Source: Calycina herbarum (Eukaryota > Ascomycota > Leotiomycetes > Helotiales > Pezizellaceae). Taken from it: a stretch of DNA of 64,000 bases. Within the stretch, counting starts at the first letter, position 1, and every line of letters begins with the position of its first letter. Positions 9,289 through 54,712 of the stretch are shown here, piece by piece. The DNA is taken from NCBI GenBank assembly GCA_001414485.1, contig LLEY01000060.1, positions 248,001-312,000 on the forward strand. The letters run 5' to 3'. The notes under the pieces were generated by a model that was given only the letters and a program-made list of their open reading frames with translations, was not told where the DNA came from and did no database searches. The translations under genes were made by a program, and so were the position numbers.

Positions 9289-9371
9289 CAAGGGACGCGT
9301 AGTATGTATTGAGTACCACGGCTGGCAGCGCTTGGCCCCTTCTCGTGGCACTCAATACATATTGCCCCTTG
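9289..9371. repeat. Short foldback element (TIR family A)
   Basis: An 83-bp inverted repeat. The left arm CAAGGG...TATGTATTGAGTACCACG and the right arm CGTGGCACTCAATACATA...CCCTTG are separated by a loop of about 25 bases. The same arm sequence forms the perfect 28-bp terminal repeats of the element at 50098-50386, so this is a short member of the same non-autonomous family. Confidence 0.75.
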
Positions 9372-10450: not shown

Positions 10451-10570
10451 ACATACGACCATAGACTGAGGGATAATTGGGCATCCCGTCCGCTCTGCCA
10501 TACACAAGTCTCAGATCGGCAGATTAGTAGTTGGGTGGGTGACCACCAGCGAATACCTGCTGTTGTATGT
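10451..10570 (+). rRNA. 5S ribosomal RNA
   Basis: About 120 nt with the hallmark fungal 5S pieces in order: ACATACGACCATA at the 5' end, ATCCCGTCCGCTCT in loop B/helix III, TTAGTAGTTGGGTGGGTGAC (internal control region) and CCAGCGAATACC...TGTTGTATGT at the 3' end. The 5' and 3' ends pair (ACATACGAC with GTTGTATGT). A T5 run at 10570-10574 is the expected Pol III terminator. It stands alone, away from any rDNA unit, as is usual for dispersed 5S genes in filamentous ascomycetes. Confidence 0.93.
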
Positions 10571-10574
10571 TTTT
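10570..10574 (+). terminator. Pol III T-run terminator of 5S rRNA
   Basis: Five consecutive T residues directly at the end of the 5S sequence, the standard RNA polymerase III termination signal. Confidence 0.7.
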
Positions 10575-11577: not shown

Positions 11578-13592
11578 TCAAGCTTGAAGCTTCCTAAAGG
11601 TATAATCCCACCGAGCACAATATGCATTTCCGCCACTAACTGGGTCGGGAACAGCAGCAGGACGAGCAAGGTCAATTCCCATGGAGAACCTGGACATGAG
11701 GTTCTCGGAGTCAGTTTACTTCTTTAAGGAATATTCAAGAGCTTTTGAGTATGTCTCGGGAGTAAGAAAGAGCATGACTCCCGAAACCACCAGAATAGGA
11801 AATAATTCTCTGAGAATATCATTTACCTGTTTGTTGGGGCACATGTGCTAGGAGTTCTGCCAGAGTCCCCAGGGACGATGAAATAACAAGTGCCATAGTA
11901 AAACATAAACGACGAACAATCCGTATTAGGGAACTGGAAGCAAGAACTGCAACAGGAATTTGCGCCCTGTGATGCAGGGTAAACGTATAATCGTTGAAAT
12001 TCGTTTAGCCATTACCATCTATGCTTATATCAACAAAAGGGGATCCGTTGATAGAAGATATTTGGCTGGAAGAATGTTAGAGGAAATAGTTTATGTTATG
12101 GTAAATGGACTAGGTCTTTTTTGAGGAGGAAGATATCCCAGGGAGCTTCTGGGTACAATATAGAATATAGAAAGCAAGGGGAGTTATACTTATCAGCATT
12201 ACACTGTGTATATTGTGTTGCAATGGTTTTCTCAACGGTTACAGTTGGAGTCTGGGTTATGGTACTAGTATGAATAGAGATTGAGGTGGTTGTAGTAGTC
12301 TAGAAGAGGGGTGTCAGTAAAAAATGTCTCAGGCTTCAGCATAGGATAGATGCTAGGGTTCAGGAATGATTCAGAAGTGATTTAAGAGAAAGGAATTGGG
12401 AGAACGGTGTCCCCGTTACATACGCTGGTATACGTTGTTGTAGTTGTTGCTGGGGGCTGTTGAGCCGTTTCGGTGATTGTTGTTATTTTTGGATGATCAG
12501 AAAAAGATAATCAGTAGTAGGGTTTAATGGATTCTTACCTGTCGTGGTCACCACGGTGGCAGTAACAGCTGCGAAGTATCTCTGGGTCAGTGTTGTCATT
12601 TCTAGAAGTATGTTCAAGGAAACGAGGATGAAATAGGAGTGTGTTGGGAGACAATGGCCTCCTAAAACCATCCGAAGGATGAAAATAAACGCCGAGAACA
12701 CGCACCTTTGAGAGTCGTTGTAGTTGTAGTCTTTGCGGTTTTCTTCATGGTGAGCGCAGCAAAATACTTGACAAGTGTGTAGCACTTCACAGCAGCGGGA
12801 TAATTTGGTGTGGACGACTTGGGAGGTTTCCTTTGACGGGAAAAAATACCAAGACCCCAGCGTGAGAGAATTGCCTTCTCGACCCGTGAGACATCCCGGT
12901 TTTTAGCTGGTACGAACTCAGAGAGTGTCTGCTGGCTGGATTCATAGCCGGCGATTGCTGCAGTTGTAGTGGAGGTAACGAGAGATGTTTGAACAACTGT
13001 AAAGGTTCCCGTTGATGTGATTGTAATCGTTGCGCCGGTGGGAACAGCAGTATCCGTAACGATTTGTGTGTTCCTTTGAGTGTTGTTGTTAAGTGTCAGA
13101 AAATTTCAGGAGATAGATAGGGAAAAGGCAAGTTTCAGAAGCTCACAGTTGTTTGTGGTAGCGTTAGTGTGCCTGTTGCAGTATTTTTTATTGTACTGTG
13201 GAAGACCTCGAAATCAGTATTGCCATTCCTGGAAGTAGGTCTACAGAGTTGGAGGGGGAAACAGGGCTGTAAGAAGACGGAAAGTGTTGTCCCAAGGTGG
13301 AAAGTCTCAACCCTCCCAAACCAACCTGAAAGGATAAACACTCAGAGAGTACACATCTGGTCGAAGTAACTGGAGCGGGGGTGATGACAACAGACGGGGT
13401 GGAGGTTGTAATCACGAGCTTCGGAAGTGTGACTGTCGCAGCTTTGTTACTCGTGGGAACTGGATTGACACTTTTCGTAGCTCTGCTAGTAACGCAAAGA
13501 CTAGTAGTTGAAGTGGGAAGTACAGCAATTGCAGCACTTGCGAATGAGATAATCGACAGAGCCGCGACAAAAATATTCTGTAAAGTCTTCAT
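11578..13592 (-). CDS. Secreted Thr-rich protein with Cys-rich C-terminal domain, multi-intron
   Basis: The N terminus (ATG at 13592) is a signal peptide (MKTLQNIFVAALSIISFASA) followed by Ser/Thr/Val-rich, probably O-glycosylated sequence. The 3' half can be resolved on the minus strand: exons 12539-12601 or longer upstream to 12706, 12424-12449, an exon ending ...QYTQCNADK near 12190, one with SSINGSPF near 12030, 11827-11966 and 11578-11689. The 11827-11966 exon has eight Cys-region residues (SCCSSC...DCSSF...YGTCYFI), like fungal PAN/apple-type cell-surface domains. The stop is at 11578-11580. Introns are unusually many and 100-140 nt long; one (12300-12423) is a repeat shared with another gene. 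The joins between 13000 and 13360, and the donor near 12010, could not be resolved without breaking the frame, so a frame lesion or missed exon is possible. Likely a wall or matrix protein. Confidence 0.6.
11690..11826 (-). other. Intron with foldback in the Thr-rich gene
   Basis: GTAAAT donor and CAG acceptor, splitting an Arg codon. The middle forms a perfect 7-bp stem (CGGGAGT...ACTCCCG). It shares the 11-mer TCCCGAGACAT with the intron at 45738-45885 but is otherwise only loosely similar. Confidence 0.6.
12300..12423 (-). repeat. Introner-like element, copy 1 (whole intron)
   Basis: A 124-nt intron on the minus strand, donor GTATGT, acceptor TCTTCTAG, lying between ...TTTYTS and TTTTTSISIH in frame. 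It starts GTATGTAACGGGGACACCGT and aligns along most of its length with the intron at 45738-45885 in an unrelated gene. The first bases after the donor form a small hairpin (AACGG-GGACA-CCGTT). Homology begins at the donor and resumes at the acceptor, so the repeat and the intron coincide. Confidence 0.85.
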
Positions 13593-15484
13593 TTTAAAAG
13601 GAGAAGGAGAAAGGGAATGATCTAGTTAAGCGAAAAAAAGAACGCAAGCAGGGCTCAGGCGAATCATTTATATATGTACGTAGAGGAGAGAGTGAAGCTA
13701 GGGTCTTGAAAATTTAGCATATCAGTAGTTTTTCGGTCTAGAAATGAATAAGTTTGATGAACGAAAATCTTGTATGTTCTGAATACCATGTGTAGTAAGA
13801 CACGGCATTTAGCTCGATATTTTGCGGAGCCAAGCAGTATAGGTCGAGCTGCCACAGCATTAAAATTCATGGCACAACTGATATCACGCCAAGATCTACT
13901 GGTCTGGTAGGTTTACTCACGCACTGAGCTCTTCACATTTTGCGAGCGAACTCGTGTAGCTCATATCATATCTCTTGGTTACTATCACTTTTAATTGAGA
14001 AAACTATTAGTTGGATATTTCCATAGACTTTACGAATACTAGATCGAAAAGGAGAGAAACCAATTGGGTACCCAGTAGTATGGTAAGAAATCCTGGGTAC
14101 CATTGAGTAATGCGCCACTTTCAGGTGATCGGGTGGAAGTGCAAAGTCAATCTACGGAGGCTAGAAACCAGCTAGCCACAGACGTCCACCTCAGACTACC
14201 CGGCGCCACAAATGTCTAGACTGATGTTTATCATGTCAATCTCCAAGTTGTATTATCTTTGGGATGAACGGTGTAGAAAACCCCTTCACCACCCCACAAA
14301 TGCCACATAAGGCAGTGAGTACTGCCAAGTAATCTTATTGAGACTTGACAATCAGCAGCTGGCACCTAAAGATATCACGAACCTGTCGATAAGAAATTAA
14401 AAGAGTTACGGTAGTCTTGCATCGTACGTAACTTCACGTCTCATACGAGAACTTACCGCGTATGGCGATGTCTCCTTGAATTTCTTGAACTTACTCCCAA
14501 CCTGGACTAAGAGAATTGTCAGTGGCAAACTGGAAAGATGCGGCTGATAATATTTTACGATCCTCGGGACCCTAACCCCGCCCCCCTTTTTTTTTTGCTT
14601 GGCTCGCCGCGGCGTGTGATTCCGATTGACTAGTATAACCCCAATATTAGGTAGGTAAATCGAGATTCTTTCATGTTATGAGTTTCTGCGCCGACTGGTG
14701 AAAGTGAAGAGATAGACCAAGGCAAAAATTTGCGGAATACCTCTTTAGAAAAACCTCCAGTCGAGGGAACCATTAGACTTAAATGGAAGTGCTAAAATAT
14801 TACAAGGAACCAAGAGCAAAATACCAGGTAGAGGAAACCAGAAACCCCAGTATCTCTCCAGCATTCACAACCACAGTTTTCAAAACACAACCAACACTAT
14901 AAAGAGGACACATGCAAATCACTTAATCTTCATTTAATTAATCATCCCCCCACAAAGCTATGCTCAAGATCTGCCCTTCCGTTCGTTTCCCTTCCTATAC
15001 ATTACGACCATCCATCCCCCCTATCCACCCTTGAAAATACAACTAGAGGAAAATTTCCTCTACAGCAAAAGTGCACAGCCATATGACGGGGGCCAGTGCG
15101 AAGATATATCTTACAAAGAGAGAAAAAAGATTGGTGAGAGGTTTTGTGAGTGTGAGAAGCAAAAGAAAAAGAGAAAAAAAAGAAAACAATTGGTAGTAGC
15201 ACTAAACATTAGGCTCTCCGTATCTCAAAAAGGTTTGTAACAAAAAAAAAAAAGGGGAAAAAATGTAAGTACGAAGGTATCGTAGATCCAGCAACTAAAG
15301 TGCTCAAGAGGCCGTGAGGTGTTATCTCGTATAAAGCGGGGGGTTGGGTCGCCTTGCTTCTTGTAGGGGAACGCCGAAAGTGTATGCCGCAAAAATAAGC
15401 ATCGTCAAGAAGTGTAAAAAAAGCCCACAAATCCAGCCTATCCAGAACGCCAATTATGTCCAGTACTCCATTAATTAATCATCT
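13593..15484. other. Intergenic between Thr-rich gene and rax2
   Basis: No supported gene. It includes a T-run at 14587-14596 and purine-rich, low-complexity DNA at 15120-15260 whose short frames on both strands lack features. The part near 15300-15484 is probably the rax2 3' untranslated region. Confidence 0.45.
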
Positions 15485-44720: not shown

Positions 44721-46318
44721 CTATCGAAAACGGGAAGGACATTCACCTGTAAAATGGTCACTACTCGCACACAATTTGCAAGTTGCTGAACGAGCTGAAG
44801 TTCCAGAAGTAACAGACTGTTTTTGTTTTCCGTTTTGGCGTACAGGAGTTGTTTGGCTATTGCCCTGATTTGTTGAATCCGAAGCCTTCATGATCGTGTC
44901 CGCTTCCCGAAAATCAATATTATTCCAGCCATCTCCTGCACTACTGGATTTGTTGGGGCAGTCGAATGAAGAATGATTTTTTATATTACATGTCGCACAT
45001 GTAATCTCGTAAATCAAAGTCTTCATGAAATTTCCAGCGCCTTGCTTACACAGTGGGCAAATTTTTCCATTCGAGTGGTTTGTTGGCATCGGCACTTTTG
45101 AGTTCTTCGGCTGCATGTATGCGATTCTGTTCCAGAAATCACCTTTTCTTGTGGCGGAGTTGGTGCAGTTGAATGGAAGATGACCTGTTTGATTACATTT
45201 CCCACAAAAGTAAAGAAGACGTAAAGATTGTAGAAAATTTCTGGTGGCGGAATCGTGGCTAATTTGTTGACATAGTAGACAGACTTGTGACTGAGGGCTG
45301 GTGGTGACGACCTTTTTCTTGGGGATGGTCTGCATCTCTGGTGGATCATACCAGTCAGACTTGACTGTTCTCGAATCCGGATCCTGTTGTGCGTTGTACT
45401 CAGTTAGAGTCCAACCACCCTGCCCACAATCTTTACAATGACTTCCAAGATTTAATTTCCAAGTTGGAGGTAATTGTTGTATGACTTGGAGAGCTTTTGT
45501 GCATGTTGCGCATGGTTTCTTTGTAGTCGGCGCAAGGGCGACTCCATAGAGTAGTTGTCCCAACGTTCCATTATTACTGATTCCGCCGGTCCCTTTAGGC
45601 TCTTTGTTTTCTGATGCATAACTAACGCTCTTCTTTGGCGTGTTCATTTCATTTCTGATAGTCTTCTTAATTGCATCTGTAATAGTCGGAAGAACCAAGT
45701 GCTCCAAAGCCGCGGAAGATTCTTGCATTTCGATGCCCTAGAAGATGGGCGAGTTAGTATTTGCCTATCAAAAAATGTCTCGGGATTCGGCACAGGATAA
45801 ATGCTAGGGTTTAGGAATGATTTAGGAGTAATTCAGGAGCGATTGAAGAGAAAGGAAATGGGAGAACGGTGTCCCCGTTACCTACAAATAACTCTAATAC
45901 GTCGTCTACTTCTTTTGGGGTACCATACTGGTATGTTTCGTCTGGCGAGGGGTGTTCATTGCGGCTGGTAATAATGTTGATTTGAGTGCGTGTGGCGCGG
46001 TCGATACGATTTGCAAGAGGACTTTTGGAGTCAATAAGATCCTTTAATGTATAGGCAGTAAATACCCCTCTTGGATGCATGGCTAAAGGAGCTTCGATGA
46101 TTGTTTCTGTGAAATAGGGTTGTTGGTGCGAGATGTATCGGTATATCTGTCAAGAAAGACGGAAGTTGATGAAGTCCACTTGTGTTCTGTTGAATTTCTG
46201 TGTCTGGACCCCATGGGTATTTATGCATGAAGTTCTGGGAGGCTATGACTGATAATTTCCAACTTCTGCTGGACTTTTTCTTCTTCACCAGAGTCTTGAT
46301 AGATTGTTTCAAAAACAT
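44721..46318 (-). CDS. Multi zinc-knuckle protein of unknown function
   Basis: At least three exons on the minus strand. Exon 1 starts at the ATG at 46318 (MFLKQSIKTLVKKKKSSRSWKL). The next part is best read as ...IYRYISHQQPYFTETIIEAP... leading into MHPRGVFTAYTLKDLID...; the join between these two near 46140 is not resolved. The exon ends ...EVDDVLELF at 45886 and is followed by a 148-nt intron and GIEMQESSAALEHL. The main exon (44721-45737) carries repeated zinc modules of paired CxxC plus CxxCx4Hx4C: CATC...CKDC, CLLC...CGKCNQTGHLPFNC, CPLC...CATCNIKNHSSFDC and a last CKLCASSDHFTGEC. Zinc knuckles commonly bind single-stranded nucleic acid, so RNA binding is likely but inferred. The intron at 45738-45885 is a repeat shared with the gene at 11.6-13.6 kb. 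Confidence 0.65.
45738..45885 (-). repeat. Introner-like element, copy 2 (whole intron)
   Basis: A 148-nt phase-0 intron, donor GTAGGT, acceptor TCTTCTAG, with branch-like TACTAAC. The first 27 bases after the splice site match the intron at 12300-12423 with one difference (GTAGGTAACGGGGACACCGT...). Similarity continues through CCTTTCTCTT, ACCCTAGCAT, TATCCT and GAGACATTTTTT to the shared acceptor. It is longer by a partial duplication of a CTCCTGAATTACTCCTAAAT-type unit. Confidence 0.85.
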
Positions 46319-50097: not shown

Positions 50098-50386
50098 AAG
50101 GGCTAATATGTATTGAGTGCCACGGCGGGGTCGGCCTCAGGCTGCTCACACACCAAATTTACTACTGTAAAATGTAGTGCTCACAAAATCCACGATTCTA
50201 AGGTATTATACAACGGAGAGCTTTTATATTCTTCACAGATTATTAACTTGCCATTTCTCCTTCGCATCAAGTTGTTTTAGTCTTATTTGGACATGTGGCT
50301 AACTTATATATTTATAAAAAGTAGTGAGATTTCGTTAAAAAAGAGTACTGCGCTTGGTCCGTGGCACTCAATACATATTAGCCCTT
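50098..50386. mobile_element. Non-autonomous TIR element (family A)
   Basis: Perfect 28-bp terminal inverted repeats at 50098-50125 (AAGGGCTAATATGTATTGAG...) and 50359-50386 (its exact complement), with 233 bp between and no coding capacity. The repeat ends match the arms of the 9289-9371 foldback. No clear target duplication is seen. The transposase family is not evident. Confidence 0.8.
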
Positions 50387-52873: not shown

Positions 52874-54712
52874 ATGGTTTCTACTCGTCGCAGTACACTC
52901 CTTGCGGTAGGAAGCTTCGCTGCTTCTGCCGCTGCTTGGGATTTTCCAAATAGTGTGGATGTTACCTTGAATTCGAATTCCACCAATACATGCACGTATC
53001 TCAAGTACAAATACCCGAACATGACAATAATGCCAACAGACAGCGGATATGCCGATGAAAACGAATGTAAGCTAGTTCTACAGATATTACTGCCTTAAGA
53101 ATATTAAAAGCTAACATCACGTAAAGTCTCGTGGAATGCTGGAGCGGTGAGTACCCAGTTTCTCTGAGTAAAAAGTCTCCTTTGGGTAAATCCCAGCGCT
53201 GAGACATTCTTCCTTCGCGAACTTTCTACAATGGTCCTGGAGACTCTTACTCACTCTACTCCTTAAACATTCCTCAAGAAGTTTACTGACTCCGAGATCC
53301 TGTAGTGGCTCAGCCCTGCTTGCGTTTTGACTCCATACAACGCAGAACAAATGTCCTGTGCTGTCAAGAAACTTGTCGAATTCGCGACCCCTTTTGCCAT
53401 TAGAGGAGGAGGACATATGCCAATCCCAGATGCCGCAAATATCAATTCCACGGGGGTTTTGATTTCCAGTTCACAACTCACCACATTGAAACTTTCAGAA
53501 GATTTACAAACTCTATCTGTTGCACCCGGACATCCATGGGGAGATGTGTATGAATTTCTTGATACTACGAAAACTGGAAAGATGGTAGTAGGCGGCCGAT
53601 ATACTCCAGTGGGGATTCCCGGTTATCTACTGGGAGGTGGAATGTCTTTTTACTCTTTTGAGTACGGATTTTCGTCTACAAACGGGAATGTTCGAGCTTA
53701 TGAGGTAAGCTTTCATAACTACAGTAGCCCCAAGCACGCCTAACTCGTAACAATCCTACAGTGTGTTCTCGCCGATGGCTCAATTGTCACAGCTACTGCC
53801 GATAACGAACAATCCGATTTGTATTGGGCCCTTCAAGGAGGCGGAAACTCTTTCTGTATCGTGACCAGATTCGATCTCCGAACAATTGACTCGCCCGTCA
53901 TCTCCCTCGCATTTCCCTCATACGGTGGACTCGAAGTCAAGGACGCCTTCTTGGATAGCACACTGAACTACGTTCTGAGCGGCGATAAAGATGTCAAGGC
54001 CACTGTCATCCCAATTGTTCGTTGGGGCCAAAATTCCACCGAACCAAGCTACGAGGGAAATCTGTGGTACAACGGAAATGTCACCAAACCAGAAATCTTC
54101 AACGACTACCAAGGTGGTCTTCTCCCAGAAAACAATTCCACTGCGCTGAATGCTTTGACTATGGGTACTTTCTCGAAGATCTTGGGTCCTTCCTTTGCAA
54201 AGGGCGGAGTGTCGAATGGCAAACATCAACTCTTCCATGTTCAATCCATCAAGGCAACCAGAGAGGCAATGGACATTGTACACGATATTTTCTTCGACGG
54301 AATCGTCGCTCACGGACTCTCAGACGTCCCTGAGTTTGTCGCAGCCCTAGCTTTCAACCCCATCACCACATCATTCATCGCAGCCTCCAACACTGGAACC
54401 GGTTGTCCCCAGGGTGTACCAGAAGAAGCTGTGTTTTGGGTCGAAGAAGCGCTTACCTGGGGTGAAGCCGAGGATAGCGATAAGATTGATGCCTTCATTG
54501 CAGATATCAATGCAAACATGACCTCTCAATTGGCTGCTATCGGTGGTGCATCGACGTATATATACTTGAATGATGCGGAGAAGAATCAGCCTGTGTTCCA
54601 GGGATATCCTGCTGAGAATGTCGTCCGTCTGAAGGAGATCAGAAGCAAGTATGATCCAGATATGATTTACACCAACTTGATGCCTGGTGGATTTAAGGTT
54701 GCACATGCATAG
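52874..54712 (+). CDS. Secreted FAD-linked oxidoreductase (BBE-like/PCMH type)
   Basis: Flavoenzyme of the berberine-bridge/6-hydroxynicotine oxidase superfamily, 520 aa, join(52874..53066,53127..53146,53306..53704,53762..54712). Signal peptide MVSTRRSTLLAVGSFAASAAA. The FAD-binding PCMH domain has CVLTPYNAEQMSCAVKKL, then FAIRGGGHMP, whose His108 is the expected covalent FAD attachment. PGHPWGDVYEFLD and GIPGYLLGGGMSFYSFEYG follow, then LADGSIVTATADNEQSDLYW and ALQGGGNSFCIVTRF. The C terminus (YDPDMIYTNLMPGGFKVAHA) is family-typical. The second Cys used for bicovalent FAD in some members is not present in the GGRYTPVGIPGY segment. Exon 2 is only 20 nt (encoding FSWNAGA) and is needed to keep frame. 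Substrate unknown; family members oxidise alkaloids, sugars or polyketides. No biosynthetic cluster surrounds it. Confidence 0.9.

Follow-up and report, generated by a model that had tools for sequence, protein, structure and literature searches.

The window, by which we mean the whole 64,000-nucleotide stretch of Calycina herbarum DNA analysed here, carries two introns of one repeated family (family A), each lying in a different gene, and two introns of a second family (family B). The introns and the parts of their host genes are as follows.

11690..11826, minus strand: family B copy B1, 137 nt, GTAAATGATATTCTC...CTGACTCCGAGAACCTCATGTCCAG, about 470 bases downstream of family A copy 1
12096..12299, minus strand: open frame of host gene 1 on the downstream side of copy 1 (TTTTTSISIHTSTITQTPTVTVEKTIATQYTQCNADK), from the translation
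12300..12423, minus strand: copy 1 of family A (124 nt, phase 0), with donor GTATGT and acceptor CTTCTAG, inserted at the junction AGC/ACT (here and below, a slash in a junction marks the insertion point)
12313..12317, minus strand: CTGAC of copy 1, branch-point-like by sequence reading and 13 nt upstream of the end of the acceptor
12424..12482, minus strand: exon stretch upstream of copy 1 in host gene 1, which codes for a Thr-rich protein; our reading of the translations, border at 12482 tentative
near 13593, minus strand: signal-peptide-like start of host gene 1, MKTLQNIFVAALSIISFASA, our reading
44724..45737, minus strand: exon of host gene 2 that follows copy 2; several Cys-rich motifs in its protein look like zinc knuckles by eye
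45738..45885, minus strand: copy 2 of family A (148 nt, phase 0), with donor GTAGGT and acceptor CTTCTAG, inserted at the junction TTT/GGC
45753..45757, minus strand: CTAAC of copy 2, likewise branch-point-like by sequence reading and 15 nt upstream of the end of the acceptor
45886..46149, minus strand: open frame of the exon preceding copy 2 in host gene 2; predicted excision joins it in frame to the exon that follows
53147..53305, plus strand: family B copy B2, 159 nt, GTGAGTACCCAG...CTGACTCCGAGATCCTGTAG

The two family A copies align from GTAACGGGGACACCG to TCTTCTAG, with indels before the branch point and at an 11-base internal repeat that copy 2 has once more than copy 1. An earlier note on this DNA had matched the two minus-strand introns, at these coordinates and lengths, from donor to acceptor, and the alignment bears this out; the exon flanks of the two introns fail to align, as it had also claimed. 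The shared 5' stretch that it described is near-identical, but begins only after the first four bases (GTAT in one copy, GTAG in the other) and not at the donor. Copies 1 and 2 supply the longest direct repeats reported in the window (70 nt at 84% and 65 nt at 88%), and a third family A copy lies about 7 kb to its left (C337:240998). Copy 1 and B1 are probably in the same host gene. The window also holds a 5S rRNA gene at 10451-10571 on the plus strand (Rfam RF00001, 70.4 bits), a 62-nt direct repeat of 87% identity at 1259-1320 and 1692-1753, 433 bases apart, and, at 50098-50386, a 289-bp stretch between perfect 28-nt inverted repeats that has the look of a MITE-type element; sequence related to it recurs at 9300-9325 and 9344-9371.

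Searches were made in the window's own genome (68.8 Mb, 379 contigs), and the counts they gave are lower bounds. The blastn search proposed for the 124-nt intron, run with the 121-nt core of copy 1, found 41 matches, the best non-self match at E 3.9e-28; another family A copy as query found 42. A 25-nt 5' pattern, allowed up to three mismatches, occurs at 70 genome places and its reversed control at none, an internal 27-nt core pattern at 43 (control 0), and a short 13-nt pattern at 61 (reversed control 13). When all pattern and blastn places are clustered they number 99, or 85 without the places unique to the 13-nt pattern; six of the 14 places found by that pattern alone were read, and four of the six are copies, one without a clear acceptor. 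We extracted 86 distinct copies, and these contain the 5' pattern 70 times and the core pattern 43 times, equal to the genome-wide counts of places. Locus L128, which had been taken from the wrong side of its match, was left out. Because own-genome searches give lower bounds, we state the total for family A as at least 90 copies. The prediction that two copies in 64 kb meant many more in the genome thus holds, and the opposite outcome that had been envisaged, matches lying mainly outside introns, did not occur: the 43 core-pattern places are equalled by the 43 extracted intron copies with that pattern, among them a single copy whose acceptor is lost. Rfam, searched with one copy at E up to 1, gave zero matches to a known RNA, and one exact pattern searched in a set of viral and a set of prokaryote contigs was found in neither.

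The copies are closely similar, with a median identity to the consensus of 90.7% among 81 copies, 91.3% between nearest neighbours and 97.7% for the best pair. In length they mostly span 107-168 nt, and their median of 136 nt (81 copies) exceeds that of ordinary introns, 66 nt for 42 introns from a rough de novo scan. An 11-base unit, GAATCAYTCCT, whose number differs between copies, explains much of this spread; two copies are shortened, to 71 and 84 nt. The copies cluster modestly along the genome: neighbours up to 20 kb apart form 8 pairs, against 2.0 expected, and those up to 60 kb apart form 10, against 6.0 expected. Same-strand pairs 0.2-1 kb apart occur at L110 (447-769), L052 (1133-1620), L028 (471-1631) and L006 (872-1633), in coordinates of the copy's strand, and the closest such pair is probably in one gene.

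Splice signals are carried by the element itself. Donors in the 86 copies are GTAGGT (70), GTAAGG (7), GTAAGT (3), GTAGGC (2), GTATGT (2), GTGGGT (1) and GTACGT (1), and acceptors are TAG in 71 and CAG in 14, with one copy lacking AG. Typical acceptor ends are TCTTCTAG or CACCCAG, the branch points being CTGAC or CTAAC, and a CTRAY motif lies within the last 40 nt of 78 of the 86 copies. In a conservation profile of 74 full-length copies, information is 2.0 bits at the intron's three leading and two final bases, drops to 0.45 and 0.22 bits on the exon bases next to them and is at most 0.19 farther out; the borders of the repeat are therefore those of the intron, as had been suggested from two copies.

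Excision at the first GT (GTAG) gives a longer frame than excision at the donor 4 nt downstream in 74 of the 86 copies and a shorter one in 9, so the second GT (GTAG/GTAATG) is rejected as donor. On the sense strand, the excised frame beats that of the antisense strand in 80 of 86 copies and loses in 5. A stricter three-frame test is noisy, with the correct frame strictly best in 54 of 86 copies, tied in 9 and worse in 23, against 29, 1 and 56 for the antisense control. Twenty spliced proteins, chosen for long frames, were compared with Pfam, and a domain runs across the junction in 14 and in none of the other 6. One copy (L025, 1469-1617) interrupts the CCCH finger of a splicing factor, CWC24. 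Aligned with yeast CWC24 and human RNF113A, its predicted spliced protein has no gap at the junction; identity to a Hymenoscyphus fraxineus protein is 93%, the next named matches, from other Helotiales, being near 80%. On this single protein the host stands nearest Hymenoscyphus among the Helotiales, and is probably a species other than H. fraxineus. In another copy (L096), predicted excision restores the adenylation-domain motif TSGSTGKPKG. Most copies sit within coding sequence. Judged by sequence, family A introns are of the U2 type; since each copy has its own donor, branch point and acceptor, their predicted excision would leave the host reading frame intact.

Some copies depart from the usual form. 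The acceptor is lost in L049, and the 84-nt copy L091, in a gene of the sugar-transporter family, reads through in frame with no stop and so could become an exon. Two shortened copies, L039 and L073, have 3' borders at internal AG sites of the element (CCCTAG and GATAG), which suggests acceptor switching after deletion. A nested intron was also considered, as an internal acceptor-like CCTGAACCCYAG is present and L039 ends exactly there; by eye, no workable nested donor was found, and the idea was rejected.

The junctions of family A are far from random. Among 85 copies with both ends, T/G occurs 26 times (5.5 expected), C/A 17 times (6.2) and T/T 13 times (6.3), and A/A does not occur; base -1 is a pyrimidine in 72 (41.9 expected) and A in only 4 (23.7 expected). 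T/G and C/A together make up 39 of 77 junctions, compared with 10.1 expected at exon- and phase-matched random positions and a maximum of 24 in 5000 simulations, and the -1 and +1 bases are non-independent (p 5e-5, 83 copies). G is enriched at +2 and +3, with T/TGG at 10 of 77 sites, and T/GG (15 of 77) and CC/A (6 of 77) mirror each other. Three copies that were read after the motif had been defined, with both ends present, fit it (T/TGG, T/GGG and T/GTA). AG precedes the insertion in 1 of 86 copies, and GT or GC follows it in 13 of 86. Ordinary introns of the same sequence (rough de novo scan, n=42) have G or A at -1 in 69% (Fisher p 3e-9), so splicing alone does not require the junction pattern. 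The insertion motif (T/G, C/A, AT/TGG) is thus non-random and unlike that of ordinary introns, and it is new here. A strand-symmetric target was considered, with G at +2 of T/G (60% of 25) mirroring C at -2 of C/A (44% of 16), but full symmetry is not accepted because T/T occurs 13 times and A/A never. A position-matched test for target-site duplication in 81 copies gave no in-register signal; of several hundred cells, two scattered ones, both off register, passed z 3.

The seven copies with a GTAAGG donor (L016, L025, L027, L028:471, L065, L077 and L079) form a subfamily with the insertion point shifted by one base. Four of the seven stand directly before TGG, compared with 11 of the 79 other copies (Fisher p 0.016), and the intron's own 5' end may help to set the position of insertion.

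The ends of the element may pair with each other. The family A consensus has an imperfect terminal inverted repeat, G[TAGG]TA[ATGGGG] with [CCCCAT]CT[TCTA]G, and 47 of 77 copies have more than three expected end-to-end pairs. For the near-terminal inverted repeat, 91% of cells are paired in 42 copies, a signal that is weak by permutation (p 0.023) and without covariation. Stable secondary structure was not found among 77 copies (mean z 0.08, none below -2), and a conserved RNA fold, with a consensus energy of -2.0 kcal/mol and no covariation, is not claimed.

Family A is not the only repeated intron in this genome. B2 aligns end to end with an intron of L007 (2967-3119) at 82% (E 2e-44), an intron of L123 (63-161) is itself repeated, with 14 blastn matches including the query, and a 24-nt 3' pattern of family B occurs at 77 genome places (control 0). 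Six copies were read (B1, B2, L123, L007, L030 and L052), each with GT at the donor and AG at the acceptor. B1 and L123 align at both ends, and in the other comparisons similarity is mostly confined to the 3' portion. The frame becomes longer on excision in B1, B2 and L052; the result is indecisive in L030, and the sequence is too short to tell in L123 and L007. Resemblance to family A is weak (best E 3e-4), and the junctions, with G at -1 in 4 of the 6 copies, AG in 2 and a following TGG in 2, look different from those of family A. The earlier proposal that this lineage carries an introner family is thus supported for family A and has to be widened, the genome having at least one further family.

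We consider it very probable that family A consists of introner-like elements that have been copied at least 90 times into protein-coding exons of this Helotialean fungus. As to how they were copied, on balance we lean toward a route through the excised intron RNA, either reverse splicing or the capture of such RNA, or of its cDNA, where the DNA is nicked or broken. Here the excised RNA would be the intermediate from which a new copy arises in an exon, and sense orientation, exact borders, the lack of target-site duplication and the lack of copies found outside genes would all follow, more simply than from ordinary transposition of DNA. The RNA route alone does not predict the T/G and C/A bias. 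As biased junctions follow from neither random break repair nor AG/GT recognition, they point to a selective DNA step, and the motif would then reflect the preference of a cleaving or joining activity; T/G together with C/A hints at one dinucleotide recognised on either strand. Our more specific proposal is a tentative one, that RNA or cDNA of a site-selective introner is joined without duplication at CA/TG-type steps, with T/GG and AT/TGG as the best motifs, by a cleaving or integrating activity distinct from both random break repair and AG/GT recognition. If family B uses other sites, each family may have its own target choice.

A competing account, modelled on the stwintrons of Hypoxylaceae, has intron RNA or cDNA captured during double-strand break repair, the motif marking sites of breaks or nicks such as CpA/TpG. 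Seamless insertion without duplication and the CA/TG bias agree with this account, as does a near-terminal inverted repeat arranged as in NTIRE-10, but random breaks should leave random junctions, as is reported of stwintrons, and those of family A are strongly biased; we regard it as rather unlikely. Somewhat less likely again is a non-autonomous DNA transposon with terminal splice sites, moved by a duplication-free transposase, Helitron- or recombinase-like, that prefers CA/TG steps, where selection would have removed antisense and out-of-frame insertions. Such a transposase would fit the enrichment of both T/G and C/A, one dinucleotide on two strands, with their mirrored triplets T/GG and CC/A, and an imperfect terminal inverted repeat is present. 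Helitrons end at 3' in CTRR, to which the CTAG end of family A is similar. The transposon account is opposed by the lack of target-site duplication, by a strand symmetry that the T/T and A/A counts break, and by an inverted repeat that is weak and free of covariation. Extragenic insertions should moreover be tolerated, yet none of the 43 core places is longer, antisense or border-free, and our lower-bound search, in which these places equal the extracted intron copies, found neither copies outside genes nor an autonomous partner.

For evidence of intron gain, we examined three host families by searching the genome with the spliced protein, counting from match ranges with about 10 residues on each side. 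The match of the host gene itself breaks at the junction in all three. In the FAD-binding oxidase family of L002, 21 of 43 other matches cross the insertion point without a stop; in the adenylation-domain family of L096, 12 of 23 do so, some of the matches being other modules on the same contig and strand; and in the alcohol dehydrogenase family of L015, 19 of 26 do so, with no nearby break in those 19. About ten matches in the L002 family start at residues 58-61, and by our reading the introner point is followed 3 nt downstream by an intron of ordinary appearance in the four paralogs examined (L124-L127). Likewise, we read introns in L096 paralogs 2 nt upstream (L123) and 11 nt upstream (L129), all within TSGSTGKPKG. 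A simple presence/absence gain at L002 and L096 was dropped once these were found, and because paralog introns sit nearby, parallel gain or replacement of an older intron has to be considered there. Insertions in these two families crowd near one point, and L015 is clean. L096 and L123 carry copies of two different intron families 2 nt apart in paralogous genes, and the adenylation-domain motif is possibly an insertion hot spot. Such crowding recalls Dothideomycete introner-like elements, for which the cited part of PMC4457414 describes three parallel gains within a 15-bp window.

That the repeat inserted into, or replaced, introns already present seems very improbable for the family at large. 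The older-looking intron in the four L002 paralogs, as we read it, speaks for it, but the introner point is 3 nt off that intron, similarity reaches exactly both splice borders in the 74 full copies, and the through-running L015 matches are unbroken around the insertion site. Shared ancestry or gene conversion among duplicated genes can be set aside almost entirely, and is refuted for the copies examined: copies are sometimes close, as the pairs within 20 kb attest, but the 150-nt flanks of 83 copies are unrelated, except in two pairs of neighbouring copies whose flanks overlap, and host protein families differ. A duplication covering exons as well as introns, which the earlier note had set as the contrary case, is accordingly not what these unrelated flanking exons show.

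Known introners offer partial parallels. Dothideomycete introner-like elements, as far as the cited descriptions go, are also canonical U2 introns inserted seamlessly, in many similar copies, into unrelated genes; they exceed ordinary introns in length, sometimes occur twice in a gene and can insert a few bases from other introns. Family A differs in lacking the AG/GY preference given for those elements in the relevant passage of PMC8469720 (AG precedes it in one copy), in showing none of the stable folding cited for them and in having a Leotiomycete (Helotiales) host. The comparison with Dothideomycetes in the earlier note therefore stands as regards an introner-like family, and not as regards host class or insertion-site preference.

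Sister stwintrons and cropped sister introns of Hypoxylaceae and Xylariaceae, in the portions of the literature cited here, resemble family A in seamless insertion without target-site duplication and in occurring on the coding strand only. A near-terminal inverted repeat, short and placed ahead of the acceptor after the branch point, may be a further likeness; that of family A, at p 0.023 and without covariation, resembles the NTIRE-10 of Xylariales stwintrons. Unlike [D1,2] stwintrons, in which an internal intron splits the donor between nt 1 and 2, family A starts with GTAG/GTAATG and not G/GT, and is not nested. Its exon context is strongly biased, whereas the cited passages report no exon bias for Hypoxylon (PMC8469720) and no bias for 288 stwintrons (PMC12403724). 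The DNA-transposon introners of Micromonas, Aureococcus and Symbiodinium, in the sections of PMC9860276 cited, are similarly whole-element introns in exons; family A differs from them in having no target-site duplication and no clear terminal inverted repeat and in carrying both splice sites itself. Ascomycete introner families have neither feature, according to the same sections (PMC9860276). By these partial descriptions, the junction motif sets family A apart from all the systems compared.

At the level of titles and abstracts, we found no introner family described for Hymenoscyphus, Helotiales or Leotiomycetes, and the phenomenon appears to be extended here to the Leotiomycetes. The finding bears on the long-standing question of how new spliceosomal introns arise, ascomycete introners being, in the cited account, an outlier group without target-site duplications or terminal inverted repeats. 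Family A has a measurable insertion motif, includes copies as alike as 97.7% and a subfamily whose insertion point is shifted, and shares its genome with family B; this makes the DNA step by which these introns would enter exons testable.
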